Source: a virus
Virus record (IMG/VR): IMGVR_UViG_3300034198_029092
Span: 1-64,000 of that record
Direction: 5' to 3' (one strand)
DNA: 64,000 nt
Positions 11,665 to 45,498 of this stretch are shown piece by piece (positions within the stretch are counted from its first letter, which is position 1; each line of letters opens with the position of its first letter). The translations under genes were made by a program, and so were the position numbers. The notes beneath the pieces are model-generated. The model was not told where the DNA came from. It did not search any database and was given only the letters and a program-made list of their open reading frames with translations.

Positions 11665-14015
11665 TACCAACCCTTCCCGCTTGAATCCTTAGGAGGTTCA
11701 GGAGTCGCGACTTCAGGTGTGGGATTTTTCTTCCAACCATCACCCTCCACCTTCGTCTCCAGTTGCGCAATCTGGCGGCGCATGCGCTTCAACTTTTCCG
11801 CGTCGCGTAGTTCGTTGTGCGCTCGCACATTTTCAAGCTCATTGAGCGCAATCATGCGGCGGTACTTATCCAAGTAACCCGTACCAAGAGCGCCAAGCGC
11901 ATGTGCGCCCGCCGTAGCTGCAGCTAGTCCAAGCGCCCTTTTGTTTCCCAGCAAGAGCGACTCCGCCATTGGCATCGCGCTCACACCTGTCCGTAGTGCG
12001 ATGGATTTGCCGATAGTCTTCCAGTCCAGATTTTCCGCACCTTCGCGGAGTGCATTTTCTTTGGCCGGGGTCTTGAGTGCTTGTCGGGCCAAATCACGCC
12101 CTTCTGCCATAAGGTTAGACTGTCGGCCCTTTGCTATAAGATGACCGATTGCACCACCGGCAAGCCCACTGACCGCCGCCGCCGCGGGGTGCACTTGTTG
12201 CATCAAACCGGCACCAATTGCCACGCCTGGAAGCGTGTAGGCCAGCTCTGCCGCAACGCGCGGTTTCCACGAAGAGGAAAGCTCCTTCGAGGCCTCCGTC
12301 GTAGCAATCGCAGCCTTTTTCTCTTGATTAGGCAACAGCGCACGGAACTGGTTAATGAGGTCTTCCTTGCTCTTCGACATTTGAGCGAGGTACTCATCAA
12401 CCGACTTATCCGGCTCACGCCCGACGAGTTTGTTACCTAGCCTCGTAAGCGTCCCTTCCGGGCGAGAGGCCAAGTAGTTCTCAATCAACAACTTACGCTT
12501 TTCGGGCGGCAAGTCGGCATGGCTCATGTACCGCGCGCCACGCCCTTCCACCTGCTTGAGTTTCTCCGCATTCCAGTGCGGCTCCAGAATCTGCATGAGG
12601 CGCGTGCCCTTGAGGTCTAGGCCCTCTCCTCCAGCTGAAGACAAGAGCAAGGTACGCAGCTTCCCTGCATTGTAGTCTTTGACGAGCTGTTCCCGCTTCT
12701 TGGAGGGCATGCTCCCGGTGAACTCACCGTAGGGAATCTTCGCCTCGTCGAGCCGGCGCTTGTAGGGGTCAATCCCCGCCGGCAGGTAGTTAGAGTAGAC
12801 GACGGCACGCGACGTAGGGTCCTGCGCCAGAGTCGCCTGAAGGCTCTCAAACGCCTTTTGAATCTTCGGGTCTTCGGCCTTCGTTCCCGCTGGCACAAAC
12901 GGCGCCGTGGTATTCGTCGCCTGTCGCGCCGCGCCCAAAAACGCGTTCAACTGTTGTGACTCCTGCTTACTCGGCGGGAGTCCACGCTTGACCTTGGCGG
13001 CAACCCAGGCAGGGGCTTGCCCCATAAGCGTGTCGTACACCTTGAGCTGGTCCGGCGTCATCGGCACGCGCACATCTCGGCGCTCGACTTCGGGAAAGTT
13101 TTCCGTACTTCCGGGGTGGAAATCTACCCACTTCTTGAAAACGTCTCGAAGCTCAGGTGCGGTCTTTTGGTAGAGAACCGGAACTACACCCGGCTTGACC
13201 TTATTTTCATCGGAACGCACCAGGTTGGCGGCCCGCTGGAATAGACTCGGGTTTACCGCCTTCTCCGTGATGTATCGGCGCGTGAACTCGTCCTTGTCGT
13301 AGGGCAGGACTTTCGCGTCCGCGGCCAAGTCGATAAGCGGCGCGATGTCCGAAGGATGGTTGTAAAAAGGGCTGCCCGTAAGAAGAAGGCGCTTCTGACT
13401 GGTGTTTCCTTTGAGCGTCTGGAACGTCGCGGAACCCGGATCACGCGCACGGTGTGCTTCGTCCACAACCAAGAGGGGCGCCGTAGGAGAGACCCCTTTC
13501 GTCGCCATGTTCTGCATGGACATGAGCGACGCGGGAGGTGTCTTCCCCTTCAAATGCTTCGCTCGTTCTTTTTCGTAGTTTCCCAGAAGGGCCGCGGGCG
13601 CGATGACCTGCGACGGCTGACCCAGTGCATCCTGCGCGGCGATGCTGGTTAGCGTCTTTCCGGAACCAAGGCCGTGAACTACAAGAAGTCCAGGCTGATT
13701 CTCTTGCTGGATGCGGTCAACGACGCGTTGCTGGTGCGGCAGCAACGCCGTTGAGACTGCGGCAATTTTGCCTAGTTCATCCGTAAACCCGGCCAGCGAC
13801 GCGCGCTTGCTGTCGGGGTTCGCCGTGTGTTCGTCGTCTTTAGGAGTGTCGTACTTGGCCTTTGCCGCACGACGCCCCTCTACGGTGCCGTAACTTTTTG
13901 GTGTCTTCCCGAGAGAGTGGCTCTGCTGCGTTGCGATAGCCCAAGCCTGGGACTCCGACATTTTCGGGTTACGCGCCATCAGATGCTGTGCACGGTCGTG
14001 AATCCACTTGGGCAT
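11664..14015 (-). CDS. SNF2-like helicase with virion-type leader and membrane-like tail
   Basis: 783 aa. Residues 1-70 form a leader (KWIHDRAQHLMARNP, AWAIATQQSH, KSYGTVEGRR) and 77-85 carry the tag FTDELGKIA. The helicase follows: Walker A GLGSGKT (about 115-121), VVDEAH (about 183-188), LTGSP (about 212-216), and a second RecA-like half with GGEGLDLKG and QVEGRGAR. The last 180 residues contain hydrophobic Gly/Ala-rich segments and a charged end. Phage helicases of this type can travel in the capsid (P1 DarB is the known precedent for virion-borne helicases). Packaging here is inferred from the shared tag. Confidence 0.8.
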   Translation of the reverse strand: MPKWIHDRAQHLMARNPKMSESQAWAIATQQSHSLGKTPKSYGTVEGRRAAKAKYDTPKDDEHTANPDSKRASLAGFTDELGKIAAVSTALLPHQQRVVDRIQQENQPGLLVVHGLGSGKTLTSIAAQDALGQPSQVIAPAALLGNYEKERAKHLKGKTPPASLMSMQNMATKGVSPTAPLLVVDEAHRARDPGSATFQTLKGNTSQKRLLLTGSPFYNHPSDIAPLIDLAADAKVLPYDKDEFTRRYITEKAVNPSLFQRAANLVRSDENKVKPGVVPVLYQKTAPELRDVFKKWVDFHPGSTENFPEVERRDVRVPMTPDQLKVYDTLMGQAPAWVAAKVKRGLPPSKQESQQLNAFLGAARQATNTTAPFVPAGTKAEDPKIQKAFESLQATLAQDPTSRAVVYSNYLPAGIDPYKRRLDEAKIPYGEFTGSMPSKKREQLVKDYNAGKLRTLLLSSAGGEGLDLKGTRLMQILEPHWNAEKLKQVEGRGARYMSHADLPPEKRKLLIENYLASRPEGTLTRLGNKLVGREPDKSVDEYLAQMSKSKEDLINQFRALLPNQEKKAAIATTEASKELSSSWKPRVAAELAYTLPGVAIGAGLMQQVHPAAAAVSGLAGGAIGHLIAKGRQSNLMAEGRDLARQALKTPAKENALREGAENLDWKTIGKSIALRTGVSAMPMAESLLLGNKRALGLAAATAGAHALGALGTGYLDKYRRMIALNELENVRAHNELRDAEKLKRMRRQIAQLETKVEGDGWKKNPTPEVATPEPPKDSSGKGW

Positions 14016-34242: not shown

Positions 34243-34781
34243 GGAGTCACCTGCGGGATGACGAGCTTGTAGCTTCGTTGGGTGTCGACCAAGGCGCTTG
34301 AACGGGTGTAAGCCGCGCACAGCACGACGACGTGGTCTTCCAGAAGGCGGTCGCGCAAGAACGGAACGCCGTACATCTGGTCCTGCGTTGCCGGTGTCAC
34401 TCCGGTGGACGTGGCGTACCAAGACCAGAACTGCGTATTTGCGCCCCCGACCAACGCCACCGGAAACAGATGGTCCACAGCGGCCATGTTGAAGAGCTGG
34501 CACAGCGCGACGGCGGCGTTCGGGCTTGCCCCCGACAGTTCGGCAACGCGACTGTTGCGGATGACGGCGTAGGGCAAAAGAGACTCAAAGTCCGTAGCGA
34601 CCGGACGGGACGATTCACCTTCCCGAAGAAAGTGGCGGTACTCCACGTTGCCCCGAGAGTCGATGTGGATGCTCTGCACACGGGGCAGTTTGAGAATGTC
34701 CTCAATCACCTTGAGGAATCCTCGAATCCCCGCGTTCTTCGGTACTTCTACCGACCCCGATACGTCCTCGTACTCTGCCAT
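34239..34781 (-). CDS. Hypothetical protein
   Basis: 180 aa from the ATG at 34781, which shares a base with the upstream TGA. Alpha/beta fold with FLKVIEDILKLPRVQSIHID and a hydrophobic middle (AAVALCQLFNMAAVDHLFPV). No motif points to a function. Confidence 0.7.
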   Translation of the reverse strand: MAEYEDVSGSVEVPKNAGIRGFLKVIEDILKLPRVQSIHIDSRGNVEYRHFLREGESSRPVATDFESLLPYAVIRNSRVAELSGASPNAAVALCQLFNMAAVDHLFPVALVGGANTQFWSWYATSTGVTPATQDQMYGVPFLRDRLLEDHVVVLCAAYTRSSALVDTQRSYKLVIPQVTP

Positions 34782-42849: not shown

Positions 42850-43533
42850 CTACTCCTTGCCCTGAGCGAGAAAGCGCCGGAGAAGGCCCCTGGCCCGCTC
42901 CTTCAGTTCAGCAACTGTGCCGTCGTTCAGCAACACCGCGTCAAAAAGACTCGGGTCGATGCTTTCTTGCTCGGTTTCGCTCGCATGTTGCCCCGCCACG
43001 CCGCGGAGCCCCGCAGACGGTCGCTCCAAGCGCCAAACAATGCCGCCACCGCGTCGAATCGCATCGACTTCATTCTTGAAACGAACGTCCGGAATGATGA
43101 CGCCCTTCGGCGCCAGCCACGCCGGCTGGATACCCGTCTGGGCGGTGTAGTTCAGCGTCCGCGCGGTGCCTGCAGAATCTAGGAGCGTGGTTGCCGCGCG
43201 CAGAGCGTAGTCAATCCACACGTTCTCGTAGCACGCCCTTCCCCACTCTGTACCGAGCTGCTGGAGGGCGTACCGCGGTGTCAGAAAGCCCTGGAAGTCA
43301 TGCGCGCCACTGCCTTCCGGTGCTCGACTCCACTCCGATGGATAGCGCGTATCGGGCGCGTTTCGCTTCTCACTCGGCCCCCAAAGCTGTTCGTCGGTAA
43401 AGGCGAACACATCTTTGCAGAACCGCTTGAGCGGGTCGGCCAGGGAGACTTTCGTAAAACCGAAGTCTTTGACCAGGGCGTCCGCTGCGGTGTCCTTGCC
43501 GCTTCCGGCGAGGCCGCACAGACCCAAAATCAC
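42850..43533 (-). CDS. Deoxynucleoside monophosphate kinase-like
   Basis: 227 aa from GTG at 43533 (GTGA overlap). The P-loop LCGLAGSGKDTAAD is followed by KVSLADPLKRFCKDVFAF and later VIIPDVRFKNEVDAI and ERPSAGL, the layout of T4 gp1-type dNMP kinases. It would phosphorylate dNMPs for phage DNA synthesis. The neighbouring dCMP deaminase supports a nucleotide-supply pair. Confidence 0.8.
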   Translation of the reverse strand: MILGLCGLAGSGKDTAADALVKDFGFTKVSLADPLKRFCKDVFAFTDEQLWGPSEKRNAPDTRYPSEWSRAPEGSGAHDFQGFLTPRYALQQLGTEWGRACYENVWIDYALRAATTLLDSAGTARTLNYTAQTGIQPAWLAPKGVIIPDVRFKNEVDAIRRGGGIVWRLERPSAGLRGVAGQHASETEQESIDPSLFDAVLLNDGTVAELKERARGLLRRFLAQGKE

Positions 43534-43838
43534 AGGAGCACCTCGATACCGGCCACCCGCGCACGGCGAAGCAGCACGTCCCGACGACCGCCCTGACGCC
43601 ACACGCGGCCGTCCGAGATGTCGAGGAAATGCGTACCGTCCTGCGTGCGCAGGCGCCCCGTCAACGGACCTTCGGACACCGGCTGTTCAGCCGGAGCGGT
43701 CACAACAATCTGCGAACCCAGAAGGTTCAGCATGTCCTGCGCGGCCGTTTGAATTGCAATCTTAACGTACGCTTCCAGGTCATCGACGAAACGAAGAACG
43801 TGCGGCGCGATGGACTGGTTCAGTTGCTCGTGTGTCAT
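43530..43838 (-). CDS. Hypothetical protein
   Basis: 102 aa. N-terminal helix (QLNQSIAPHVLRFVDDLEAY), then a strand-rich end (GTHFLDISDGRVWRQGG). It overlaps the deaminase by 4 bases and the kinase start by 4 bases. No family is recognised. Confidence 0.64.
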   Translation of the reverse strand: MTHEQLNQSIAPHVLRFVDDLEAYVKIAIQTAAQDMLNLLGSQIVVTAPAEQPVSEGPLTGRLRTQDGTHFLDISDGRVWRQGGRRDVLLRRARVAGIEVLL

Positions 43839-45190
43839 GTGAACTCCTTGTGGTCGGAAGATTGCAGCCGGGACACGATAATGCCCACGCGCTCAAGAAG
43901 TTCAAGCGATTCTTTTCGCCGGTAATCTTGGGCGTACCAAACGCGCACGACTCCACCGAGATTGATGAGACGTTTCGCACACATCAAGCAGGGCAGGTGC
44001 GTGCAGAAAACAATCTTCGGCGTGTCGCGGGGCACGTCGCAGTTGATGACCGCGTTCTCTTCTGCGTGAAGGCAGTTTTGCGCTACCATGCCTGCATTCC
44101 CGGCGGCGTACCACCCCGACCGGGTCTGAAGGTTGTACACATGGCCCGCCCACTCCTTGCGCTCGATGAGCCGGACCTTGTTCGACGCTACCTTGAGGGG
44201 GACACTGTTCTGTCCCTGGCAGCGCGGTACAAGGTCTCGCACACGACCATCCAAAACCGCCTGCGCAAACACGGCGTCCTTCGCCAAATGGCCGAGGACC
44301 TGCGCCGGCATAAGAGCGCCTCGCGGCTGCGCCTCCCCATCGAAGACCTCGTGCGCCGCTACAACGCCGGAGAATCCGCCAACGGCCTCGCGGCTGTATT
44401 CCACGTAAGCCGTGGTGCTATCGAACGCCGTCTTCAAGAGGCGGGAGTTCTCGACATCGAGCGGCGAACTACGCGCCGCTCCCGACGGGCGCGCGAAGTC
44501 GATGGCCGAGTGCGCCGGGCCTTGAACGCCGAGAAGCGGGGGACGCTCCAGGGCAGCGGGGAGGCTTGGTTGGTCGAAGAGACACAGAAAGCCGGACTCT
44601 TCGTAGAACCTCAGAAAGCAGTCGGAGGATACAACCTCGACCTCCTGGTCGAGCACACCGTCGCCGTGGAACTGATGACGGGCGCCAGCATGCCGTACCA
44701 ACCGGCCCGCTATGGCGAGCGACTCAAATACCTGCTCGACAGGCACACGCTTTTGGTCGTGTGGAGCTGCGGACGACACACCCTCGTCCCAGCAGGCGTG
44801 CAAAAGCTCGTCGCCCTCTTGAAGAGTCTCTGCAGCAACCCAACCCCGCCCAAGCACCAGTACTGGGTGATTCGGGGTGACGGTGAAGTCGTCGTACGCG
44901 GTGACCAGCCGTACGACCGTGCCCTCGTACCAGCGGCGGTACGCGCGTTCGACCGACAGTGCCGTCGTAAGCGTACCTGACACAAAACAGCCACAGTTTC
45001 CTACCGCGGCTTCACCGTGCACGTCGCAGTCGTTGTCGCACCCTGCCGCGTTGCCGTTGTACCCGACAGCCAGCACCTTTCTGAAATCGGGCGTAACAAT
45101 CGCGCAACCCACACGCAGGCGACGACACGTCGAACGCTCGCTCATGCTGGAAGCGAGACGCATGTAAATGTCTTGAAACGAAGGACGCAT
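43835..45190 (-). CDS. dCMP deaminase-type protein interrupted by an intein
   Basis: 451 aa from the ATG at 45190 with GGAG 7 bases away. The N-extein (residues 1-67) ends GNCG and the C-extein (79 aa) begins CLHAEENAV. Joined they give the cytidine/dCMP deaminase motif HAEENA and the partner motif THLPCLMCAKRL (PCxxC). The intein splits the enzyme right at its zinc site, so splicing is needed for activity. It would supply dUMP for thymidylate synthesis. Confidence 0.88.
   Translation of the reverse strand: MRPSFQDIYMRLASSMSERSTCRRLRVGCAIVTPDFRKVLAVGYNGNAAGCDNDCDVHGEAAVGNCGCFVSGTLTTALSVERAYRRWYEGTVVRLVTAYDDFTVTPNHPVLVLGRGWVAAETLQEGDELLHACWDEGVSSAAPHDQKRVPVEQVFESLAIAGRLVRHAGARHQFHGDGVLDQEVEVVSSDCFLRFYEESGFLCLFDQPSLPAALERPPLLGVQGPAHSAIDFARPSGAARSSPLDVENSRLLKTAFDSTTAYVEYSREAVGGFSGVVAAHEVFDGEAQPRGALMPAQVLGHLAKDAVFAQAVLDGRVRDLVPRCQGQNSVPLKVASNKVRLIERKEWAGHVYNLQTRSGWYAAGNAGMVAQNCLHAEENAVINCDVPRDTPKIVFCTHLPCLMCAKRLINLGGVVRVWYAQDYRRKESLELLERVGIIVSRLQSSDHKEFT
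44075..44989 (-). other. Intein (305 aa) within the dCMP deaminase
   Basis: Residue 1 is Cys (CFVSGTLTTAL, block A-like). Block B is TVTPNHPVLV at 36-45. Blocks F and G are GHVYNLQTRSGWY..AGN then GMVAQN before the +1 Cys. The residue before the terminal Asn is Gln instead of the usual His. There is no in-frame endonuclease. The centre carries FHGDG (107-111) and EVEVV (116-120), exact antisense images of the endonuclease motifs encoded on the plus strand. Confidence 0.88.
44141..44980 (+). CDS. Antisense-nested homing endonuclease (HTH + Vsr-like)
   Basis: 279 aa from the ATG with GAAGG upstream, lying wholly inside the intein on the other strand. Two helix-turn-helix units (residues 12-48, 68-103) are followed by a Vsr-like PD-(D/E)XK domain: QKAVGGYNLDLLVEHTVAVE with D167 and E177, ERLKYLLDR, LLVVWSCG, and QYWVIRGDGEV near the end. 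The order and motifs match free-standing Vsr-like homing endonucleases (I-Bth0305I type). Product and intein are read from opposite strands with codons in register. Confidence 0.82.
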   Translation: MARPLLALDEPDLVRRYLEGDTVLSLAARYKVSHTTIQNRLRKHGVLRQMAEDLRRHKSASRLRLPIEDLVRRYNAGESANGLAAVFHVSRGAIERRLQEAGVLDIERRTTRRSRRAREVDGRVRRALNAEKRGTLQGSGEAWLVEETQKAGLFVEPQKAVGGYNLDLLVEHTVAVELMTGASMPYQPARYGERLKYLLDRHTLLVVWSCGRHTLVPAGVQKLVALLKSLCSNPTPPKHQYWVIRGDGEVVVRGDQPYDRALVPAAVRAFDRQCRRKRT

Positions 45191-45498
45191 CAAAGGGCTC
45201 CTCGGGCGGCTAAAACTTCGCGCATCACATCCCGTGCGTAGTCACAAGCGCGGCGCTGTACGCGCCACGCAAGCGGGCTACCGGCGTAGGACACCCCAAA
45301 AACTTCGGGGCGTGTGAACTCCTTGTCGTAGTGCTGCGGTCCGTCTTCACGCGACGGCCACACCACACGCAGCGTGAACTCCCCGTCCTTGCCGGGAAGA
45401 AAGTCTACGGACGTAGCGTAGGTTGCGCGCCGGATAGGGTCGGCCCACCCACGCAGCTGCCCGCAAAGAGTTTGAAGAAGTACCGTACCTCGGTCCAT
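45190..45498 (-). CDS. Hypothetical protein
   Basis: 102 aa. Beta-rich with GEFTLRVVWPSREDG and a helical end (QRRACDYARDVMREVL). It is coupled to the deaminase start (TGATG). Its own start is 9 bases from the divergent plus-strand gene at 45508. No family is recognised. Confidence 0.62.
   Translation of the reverse strand: MDRGTVLLQTLCGQLRGWADPIRRATYATSVDFLPGKDGEFTLRVVWPSREDGPQHYDKEFTRPEVFGVSYAGSPLAWRVQRRACDYARDVMREVLAARGAL

Follow-up and report, generated by a model that had tools for sequence, protein, structure and literature searches.

An intein and an antisense frame in a viral dCMP deaminase gene

The DNA analysed here, termed the window, comprises 64,000 nucleotides (nt) of a virus record in IMG/VR (IMGVR_UViG_3300034198_029092, positions 1-64,000). 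An open reading frame (ORF) on its minus strand (43835-45193) encodes a dCMP deaminase (phrog_174, E = 8.9e-32; Pfam dCMP_cyt_deam_1, E = 3.5e-15) that is interrupted by an intein of 305 amino acids (aa), at 44075-44989 (minus), inserted directly before the Cys of the deaminase CLHAEE motif; family matches assign 44990-45190 (minus) to the N-extein and 43835-44074 (minus), stop included, to the C-extein. Wholly inside the intein, on the plus strand and codon-in-register with it, lies a second ORF (44141-44980; 279 aa plus stop) whose predicted product, P0001, combines helix-turn-helix (HTH) modules with a Vsr-like nuclease domain, and which leaves 66 and 9 bases of the intein uncovered. A preliminary description of the locus, made from the sequence alone, had proposed this arrangement; its coordinates for both ORFs hold, and both codon alignments that it gave are correct, antisense YNLD..VAVELM being the exact codon-by-codon antisense of intein HQFHGD..EVEVV. 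Comparison with relatives leads us to regard the element, with considerable confidence, as best explained by a class of mobile inteins whose homing endonuclease gene lies antisense to the intein.

Residue counts refer to 136 non-identical inteins (the window, 19 named phages and 116 IMG/VR loci), treated as a first 88, window included, and a further 48. The window intein runs, as had been proposed, from Cys1, the block A nucleophile of class 1 Hint domains, to Asn305, which is followed by Cys. Among the first 88 inteins the block A Cys occurs in 86 and the block B His (His41, within TPNHP, the TxxH sequence of the window) in all; the terminal Asn of block G was found in 87/87, and block F of the window reads HVYNL. 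Two terminal parts make up the predicted splicing domain: codons 1-66 (44792-44989, minus; Cys1 and TPNHP), for which AlphaFold gives predicted local distance difference test (pLDDT) scores of 94-98 to residue 60, and codons 265-305 (44075-44197, minus; HVYNL to the final QN), delimited by conservation and by the AlphaFold model. That model is confident at residues 1-60 and about 265-305 and aligns with the RecA mini-intein 5i0a (Z 11.9; root-mean-square deviation (rmsd) 1.5 over 105 residues), consistent with a Hint fold. It is fairly confident also at 81-100 and 111-120. Segments with pLDDT below 50 (127-137, 139-207 and 216-260) make up nearly all of a middle region, codons 127-260 (44210-44611, minus), that is predicted to be unstructured, and sense conservation is absent from codons 121-270. 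Family-library searches returned no in-frame endonuclease family within the intein at E <= 1, in agreement with the preliminary description; the same-frame endonuclease between blocks B and F by which bifunctional inteins are recognised is absent from the window intein. The PHROG family phrog_15127 ('head protein') matches the bare intein too.

In P0001, a first HTH at residues 10-43 (44168-44269, plus) is indicated by AlphaFold helices and by a match of residues 9-58 to phage DNA-binding proteins (phrog_1303, E = 4.1e-8), and a second at residues 67-100 (44339-44440, plus) by AlphaFold and by Pfam HTH_58 (E = 3.9e-5, residues 68-103). Proteins matched by the tandem HTHs comprise phage DNA-binding proteins, invertases and resolvases. 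Profile, Pfam and AlphaFold matches place a Vsr-like PD-(D/E)XK nuclease domain at residues 139-230 (44555-44830, plus). Its putative key residues comprise a helix glutamate, Glu141 (44561-44563, plus; Glu in 84/86 and 48/48); Tyr164-Asn165-Leu166-Asp167 (44630-44641, plus), with Asp in 136/136, Asn in 134/136 and Tyr in 132/136; Glu177 (44669-44671, plus), present in 136/136, opposite which the sense codons of the first 88 inteins are always TTC or CTC; and Arg194 (44720-44722, plus), Arg in 121/136 and Lys in 15/136. An acidic catalytic pair, as expected of PD-(D/E)XK enzymes, is thus available throughout the set as D167 and E177.

The Pfam family REase MTES_1575 was matched by 36 of 69 antisense members at E <= 0.001. 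An antisense profile (A1) matched the homing endonuclease I-Bth0305I (3r3p, E = 7.8e-6) and a DUF559-type endonuclease (3hrl, E = 5.3e-6), the latter retained by a further profile, A3 (E = 1.2e-7); stathmins and designed repeats that matched the helical part of A3 in PDB were taken as composition matches. When 3r3p is aligned by profile, its Glu, Asn and Glu fall on the conserved Glu, Asn and second Glu columns, respectively, and an Ala of that chain falls on the Asp column; no HD pair was mapped. The AlphaFold model of P0001, built from the window antisense protein with 68 relatives, has a mean pLDDT of 86.9 and comprises two HTHs, a long helix and an alpha-beta nuclease core, with pLDDT blocks of 91-98 within residues 131-230 but 81 at 181-190. 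VIA-align ranked I-Bth0305I first (Z 9.7, rmsd 3.1 over 92 residues) and Vsr (1vsr) second (Z 9.2, rmsd 3.0 over 108 residues), with 3hrl at Z 8.6. From the A1 profile, the MTES_1575 matches and these alignments, the endonuclease resemblance first noted at the locus is not spurious. Structural neighbours in BFVD, returned without names, were A0A3G3BXE8 (E = 4e-11) and A7KV39, which we take to be a protein of Bacillus phage 0305phi8-36.

Antisense residues 24-157, which include most of the HTH region, the linker and the first nuclease helix, lie opposite intein codons 127-260. From the fold predictions for both strands, the two folds appear complementary over these codons and at the intein ends; over codons ~54-126 the models set the nuclease core opposite a partly folded stretch of the intein.

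Conservation of both frames among relatives

By tblastn (E <= 0.01), 109 named phage records matched the intein and 48 the antisense protein; with the antisense protein of one related locus (L063) as query, 124 matched (E <= 0.001). The IMG/VR loci came from two samples retrieved with intein-strand profiles, the best 80 of 547 and the best 80 of 587 confirmed relatives, from which 12 of the first 80 (one, L023, from the same virus as the window, and 11 with identical inteins) and 32 of the second, which duplicated earlier inteins or one another, were dropped. Four pairs that were kept differ by less than 0.5%, and the 136 inteins are to be read as non-identical rather than independent; in the second batch the assigned C-end is wrong by a few codons for some inteins. 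Some named-phage loci were chosen through antisense matches and the IMG/VR loci through the sense profile, and more distant relatives outside the best-80 samples may include broken members.

The carrier phages infect Gordonia, Mycobacterium, Rhodococcus, Pseudomonas, Vibrio, Salmonella, Escherichia, Klebsiella and other hosts. Most of the interrupted genes carry the annotation head morphogenesis, minor capsid, MuF-like or hypothetical protein, and annotations across the inspected loci span MuF, head or capsid proteins, a capsid maturation protease and dCMP deaminase. The nearest named relative is that of virus Rctr197k (intein 42% and antisense protein 44.6% identical), whose intein likewise interrupts a dCMP deaminase but at a different Cys. 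That deaminase (L004) is annotated 'putative head morphogenesis protein', perhaps owing to the resemblance of its intein to those of MuF proteins.

No free-standing relative of P0001 of similar length was found among the 48 matching phage records. Five of these are Bacillus phages with an HTH-only match (E = 5e-3); the other 43, not each of them inspected, comprise genes annotated as head, capsid or hypothetical proteins and unannotated records. Two plasmid records also matched, one within a phage minor head protein and one by its HTH only. The antisense gene is unannotated in all 21 annotated named-phage loci of the class that were inspected, including that of phage Snoke, in which curators had annotated such an intein; gene finders probably miss the antisense gene generally. 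A 'hypothetical protein' annotated opposite the intein of vB_StyS-sam was considered as a candidate and rejected, since it occupies another frame.

Many antisense ORFs of more than 200 aa occur in the G+C-rich window, and length alone means little. Stops were counted across the family. An in-register antisense stop corresponds to an intein codon TTA, CTA or TCA, and expected numbers were derived from the Leu and Ser codon use of each host gene itself, from codon 25 to 25 codons from the end. The first 88 inteins contain three interior antisense stops (at codons 25, 26 and 32) where 493.5 were expected, and the further 48 contain eight (all at codons 25-32) where 335.0 were expected: 11 against about 828 overall, all of them at the ORF's own terminus. 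From codon 33 to 25 codons short of the C-end, all 136 are free of antisense stops, so that relatives with a plus frame broken by stops and an intein frame kept, the pattern that the preliminary description had named as contrary to its proposal, are lacking from this set. The lowest chance of an open frame for a single carrier is 4e-13 (L041, of low G+C content), and 26 of the 135 related loci have less than 50% G+C, the lowest 35%. Towards the intein N-end, 129 of the 136 have their antisense stop no further in than intein codon 32; as with a homing gene, the ORF thus lies within its element.

As a control, 25 canonical inteins contained 285 antisense stops against 291.3 expected, an agreement showing that the null is calibrated; three of the 25 had no interior antisense stop. 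The control seeds were the Baka TerL and SPbeta inteins, both confirmed to have LAGLIDADG domains, a check made on the two seeds themselves. Of 33 control loci 29 were entered, giving 25 unique inteins, 13 of them close relatives of the SPbeta intein; one locus with a 100% match (L119, like L118) and three partial matches were omitted.

Signals for initiation of the antisense ORF were also examined. The plus-strand open frame extends upstream of the P0001 start, to 43832. A Shine-Dalgarno (SD)-like GAAGG (44128-44132, plus) lies 8 nt before the ATG, antisense to the intein HVYNLQ block. Among 77 inteins with the block-F His, a strict SD is present in 51, compared with 16.6+-3.3 under synonymous redraw, and an ATG start in 59, compared with 29.9+-3.9; a looser SD set, which alone includes the GAAGG of the window, gives 66/77 versus 41.6+-3.9. 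The chosen start is an ATG 20-23 codons inside the intein C-end in 62/88, and some in-frame start codon lies 10-40 codons inside it in 135/136. These counts show the antisense initiation signal to be under selection.

Constraint on each strand was measured by redrawing synonymous codons with one protein held fixed, using 71 of the first 88 inteins (below 45% identity) and pairs below 40% identity. With the intein protein fixed, the mean BLOSUM62 score of the antisense protein was 0.901 versus 0.183 under redraw (Z 98); with the antisense protein fixed, that of the sense protein was 0.903 versus 0.134 (Z 115), and purifying selection, for which the preliminary description had suggested a test, is thereby evident on both strands. 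Eleven Baka-type inteins gave Z -1.5 in the same test, three random subsets of 11 from the family Z 25-37.

Along the intein, constraint is mainly on the sense frame at the ends (codons 1-60, sense Z 126 and antisense Z 18; codons 271-305, Z 71 and Z 7) and mainly on the antisense frame in the middle (codons 121-270, antisense Z 37-85, with sense similarity negative, Z 3-9 above its own null); codons 61-105 give antisense Z 47 and sense Z 17. It is strong on both in a segment of 15 codons, 106-120 (44630-44674; sense FHGDG..EVEVV, antisense YNLD..VAVE), with Z 42 for the antisense protein when the sense protein is fixed and Z 40 in the reverse case. The proposal that the two sets of key residues are constrained together thus stands for this segment and elsewhere only in part, codons 61-105 being the weaker on the sense side. 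In near pairs (8 of 9 pairs, codons 61-120 left out) the observed/expected ratio of non-synonymous change was 0.57 (ends) and 1.01 (middle, codons 121 to n-36) for the sense frame, and 1.04 (ends) and 0.66 (middle) for the antisense frame.

At single residues, the sense amino acids opposite antisense key residues vary among the first 88 inteins (Val/Ile, Phe/Leu, Ala/Ser/Thr): Val in 70 and Ile in 18 opposite D167, Val in 56 and Ile in 32 opposite N165. Where Val occurs its codon is fixed for each site, GTA at 120, GTT at 119 and GTC at 117, as antisense Tyr, Asn and Asp require. Intein His108 and Gly109 (85/88 each) are conserved beyond the antisense requirement, with FHGD motif codons CAC in 84/88 and GGC in 85/88, so that FHGD must have a role independent of the antisense protein, whether in the sense protein or at the nucleotide level. 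Block B is mirrored in parts of the antisense C-terminal tail (YxVIRG). We regard it as practically certain that both frames are real genes.

Mobility and alternative explanations

Intein-free alleles are present in the same phage genera as carriers. When the joined extein of a Gordonia carrier was used as query, the best 60 of 801 matching records were all uninterrupted (90.7-99.1% identity), in a ranking that favours uninterrupted copies; across 180 joined bases the intein-free Jabberwocky shares 93-98% identity with Vivi2, Angelicage and Fosterous, and Salmonella relatives include both uninterrupted and interrupted copies. Whole inteins also appear to have been exchanged at one site: beside the insertion, Fosterous and Sedona agree at 95% of 600 bases on the left and at 96% of 300 bases on the right, and DNA similarity between the inteins themselves is confined to 56 bp (codons 107-124) and an 11-base match. 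The FHGD stretch (44630-44674 in the window) is almost the sole DNA similarity between these swapped Gordonia inteins. Guernseyvirinae phages carry inteins at two sites of the same protein, and sister inteins occupy two sites of the same deaminase.

We infer a cycle of splicing, antisense expression, DNA cleavage and homing. Reading of the minus strand would yield a precursor in which the Hint ends (codons ~1-66 and 265-305) come together as one fold, cut out the insert and ligate the dCMP deaminase exteins. Reading of the plus strand would yield a separate homing endonuclease, whose two HTH modules may recognise the intein-less gene and whose Vsr-like nuclease domain (E141, D167, E177, R194) would cut it; repair from the intein-bearing copy would then spread the whole element, and the two genes would move together, since the intein contains the endonuclease gene. 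Within such an element the sense frame of codons 127-260 would be an open, unstructured passenger loop, the antisense frame at the intein ends mainly a tail, and codons ~54-126 a stretch shared by the nuclease core and the intein. Homing driven by the antisense product explains the observations best, and is in our view very probable.

Several observations weigh against this reading. For the window alone, the probability of meeting no antisense stop is as high as 0.066 or 0.09. The penultimate residue of the window intein is Gln, and the usual His, which is typical of that position and not obligatory, occurs in 64/87. P0001 on its own matched nuclease families weakly (MTES_1575, E = 0.093); Foldseek E-values of its model against PDB were weak (best 0.31, for 3r3p); a T. 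gondii mitoribosome chain, at Z 9.0 in VIA-align, ties with Vsr; and profile A3, unlike A1, did not return 3r3p from PDB at E <= 1. A promoter scan of 43700-45300 found no sigma-70 promoter-like site. In 7/136 inteins the antisense frame continues 0-7 codons past the intein N-end. Two loci (L093 and L097) share an in-frame deletion in the nuclease gene by which linker and Glu141 helix seem to have been lost, and Rhodococcus phage REQ3 (L018) has a short antisense ORF without HTHs; such cases indicate that the endonuclease can decay while the intein frame stays. The REQ3 intein (2276-2950 of L018) seems to start with Ala or Val, not Cys.

Among alternatives, the one that survives best, though we consider it unlikely, accepts the antisense gene and denies it a part in homing, making it a DNA-binding regulator, a restriction-type nuclease directed against rival phages, or an intein-resident repair enzyme. 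Tandem HTHs related to those of DNA-binding proteins, invertases and resolvases would suit such roles, and Vsr itself is a repair enzyme. Yet the frame starts and ends with the intein, its stop inside the element or at most seven codons beyond, as a homing gene would; D167 and E177 are invariant, the closest fold is that of a homing endonuclease, and intein-free alleles coexist with exchange of whole inteins at one site. Very improbable, in our estimate, is conservation of an antisense transcript or product for regulating the host gene (a capsid or deaminase message) rather than for spreading the element: the gene is antisense to its host gene, in an arrangement conserved together with SD and start, but constraint acts at the amino-acid level, nuclease residues included, and the host genes differ in kind. 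Finally, a chance ORF or codon shadow, produced by G+C-rich codon use and conserved intein codons with motifs merely reflecting FHGD and TPNHP, has next to no probability left, for although the many long antisense ORFs, the YxVIRG tail and the modest figure for the window alone speak in its favour, it is rejected by extein codon use (the deficit of stops, which extends to loci of low G+C content), by the redraw test with the sense protein fixed, by the canonical control inteins, which show no such effect, and by a confidently predicted fold.

Beyond the intein, a deoxynucleotide monophosphate kinase gene (42853-43602, minus; Pfam DNMK, E = 1.6e-10) lies directly downstream of the dCMP deaminase and suggests, with it, a nucleotide-metabolism cluster. 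Over the 10,915 bases of L001, a stretch that includes the intein, the window does not differ from a 121-kb IMG/VR contig (3300032282_006516). Elsewhere the window encodes a SNF2/Helicase_C-type protein (11667-14015, minus) and the sole tRNA found in it, a tRNA-Arg with anticodon TCG (34580-34661, minus).

Relation to known inteins and homing systems

To our knowledge, the homing enzyme of mobile inteins is always either part of the intein polypeptide or the product of a separate adjacent gene. As regards the latter, Dassa and colleagues in 2009 reportedly found Vsr-like genes beside fractured, split-intein genes; these resemble the present genes as separate Vsr-like endonucleases associated with inteins, and are said to lie between the split genes, not overlapping an intein on the other strand. 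I-Bth0305I is encoded in sense inside a group I intron, a difference from P0001. It belongs, as described in PMC3943268, to the EDxHD (Vsr-like) phage homing endonucleases; its fold is the closest to the P0001 nuclease domain, it too has a separate DNA-binding region, and it is matched by profile A1, whereas the HD pair of its family was not mapped in P0001.

In-frame LAGLIDADG homing endonucleases nested in inteins are well known, and are exemplified by the TerL inteins of mycobacteriophages Baka and Bethlehem (PMC5050341). Such bifunctional inteins share with the present class Hint splicing ends placed around an endonuclease, mobility and residence in conserved phage genes; theirs, however, belongs to the same polypeptide and frame (PMC5050341), whereas here it would be a separate protein from the opposite strand and the sense middle is predicted to be unstructured. 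Antisense constraint is a further difference, being absent from canonical inteins of the Baka and SPbeta types. An antisense homing endonuclease gene is known from a group I intron, that of I-DsqI in Didymium squamulosum, where according to PMC9548176 it is expressed and active. The likeness lies in an endonuclease gene on the opposite strand of a self-splicing element; the host of I-DsqI is an RNA intron in ribosomal DNA (PMC9548176), whereas here both strands encode protein in register. No description of an antisense homing endonuclease gene within an intein came to light in searches of the open-licence text of PubMed Central, which does not cover subscription papers. We think it likely that mobile inteins have a third architecture, besides the in-frame nested and the separate-gene ones, and that it is represented here by a widespread, old class in which splicing and homing are encoded on opposite strands of the same codons.

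In these elements two unrelated folds would share the same codons in opposite directions, with no interior stop in either frame across 136 inteins. If this is true, they constitute a large natural set of conserved sense-antisense pairs of protein genes (136 non-identical examples), in which antisense overlapping genes become directly testable as two enzymes evolving on one stretch of DNA; expression of a gene opposite its host gene, and the means by which homing genes avoid decay, would become testable too. The class further supplies new candidates for Vsr-like homing endonucleases, together with inteins in which long loops are tolerated.

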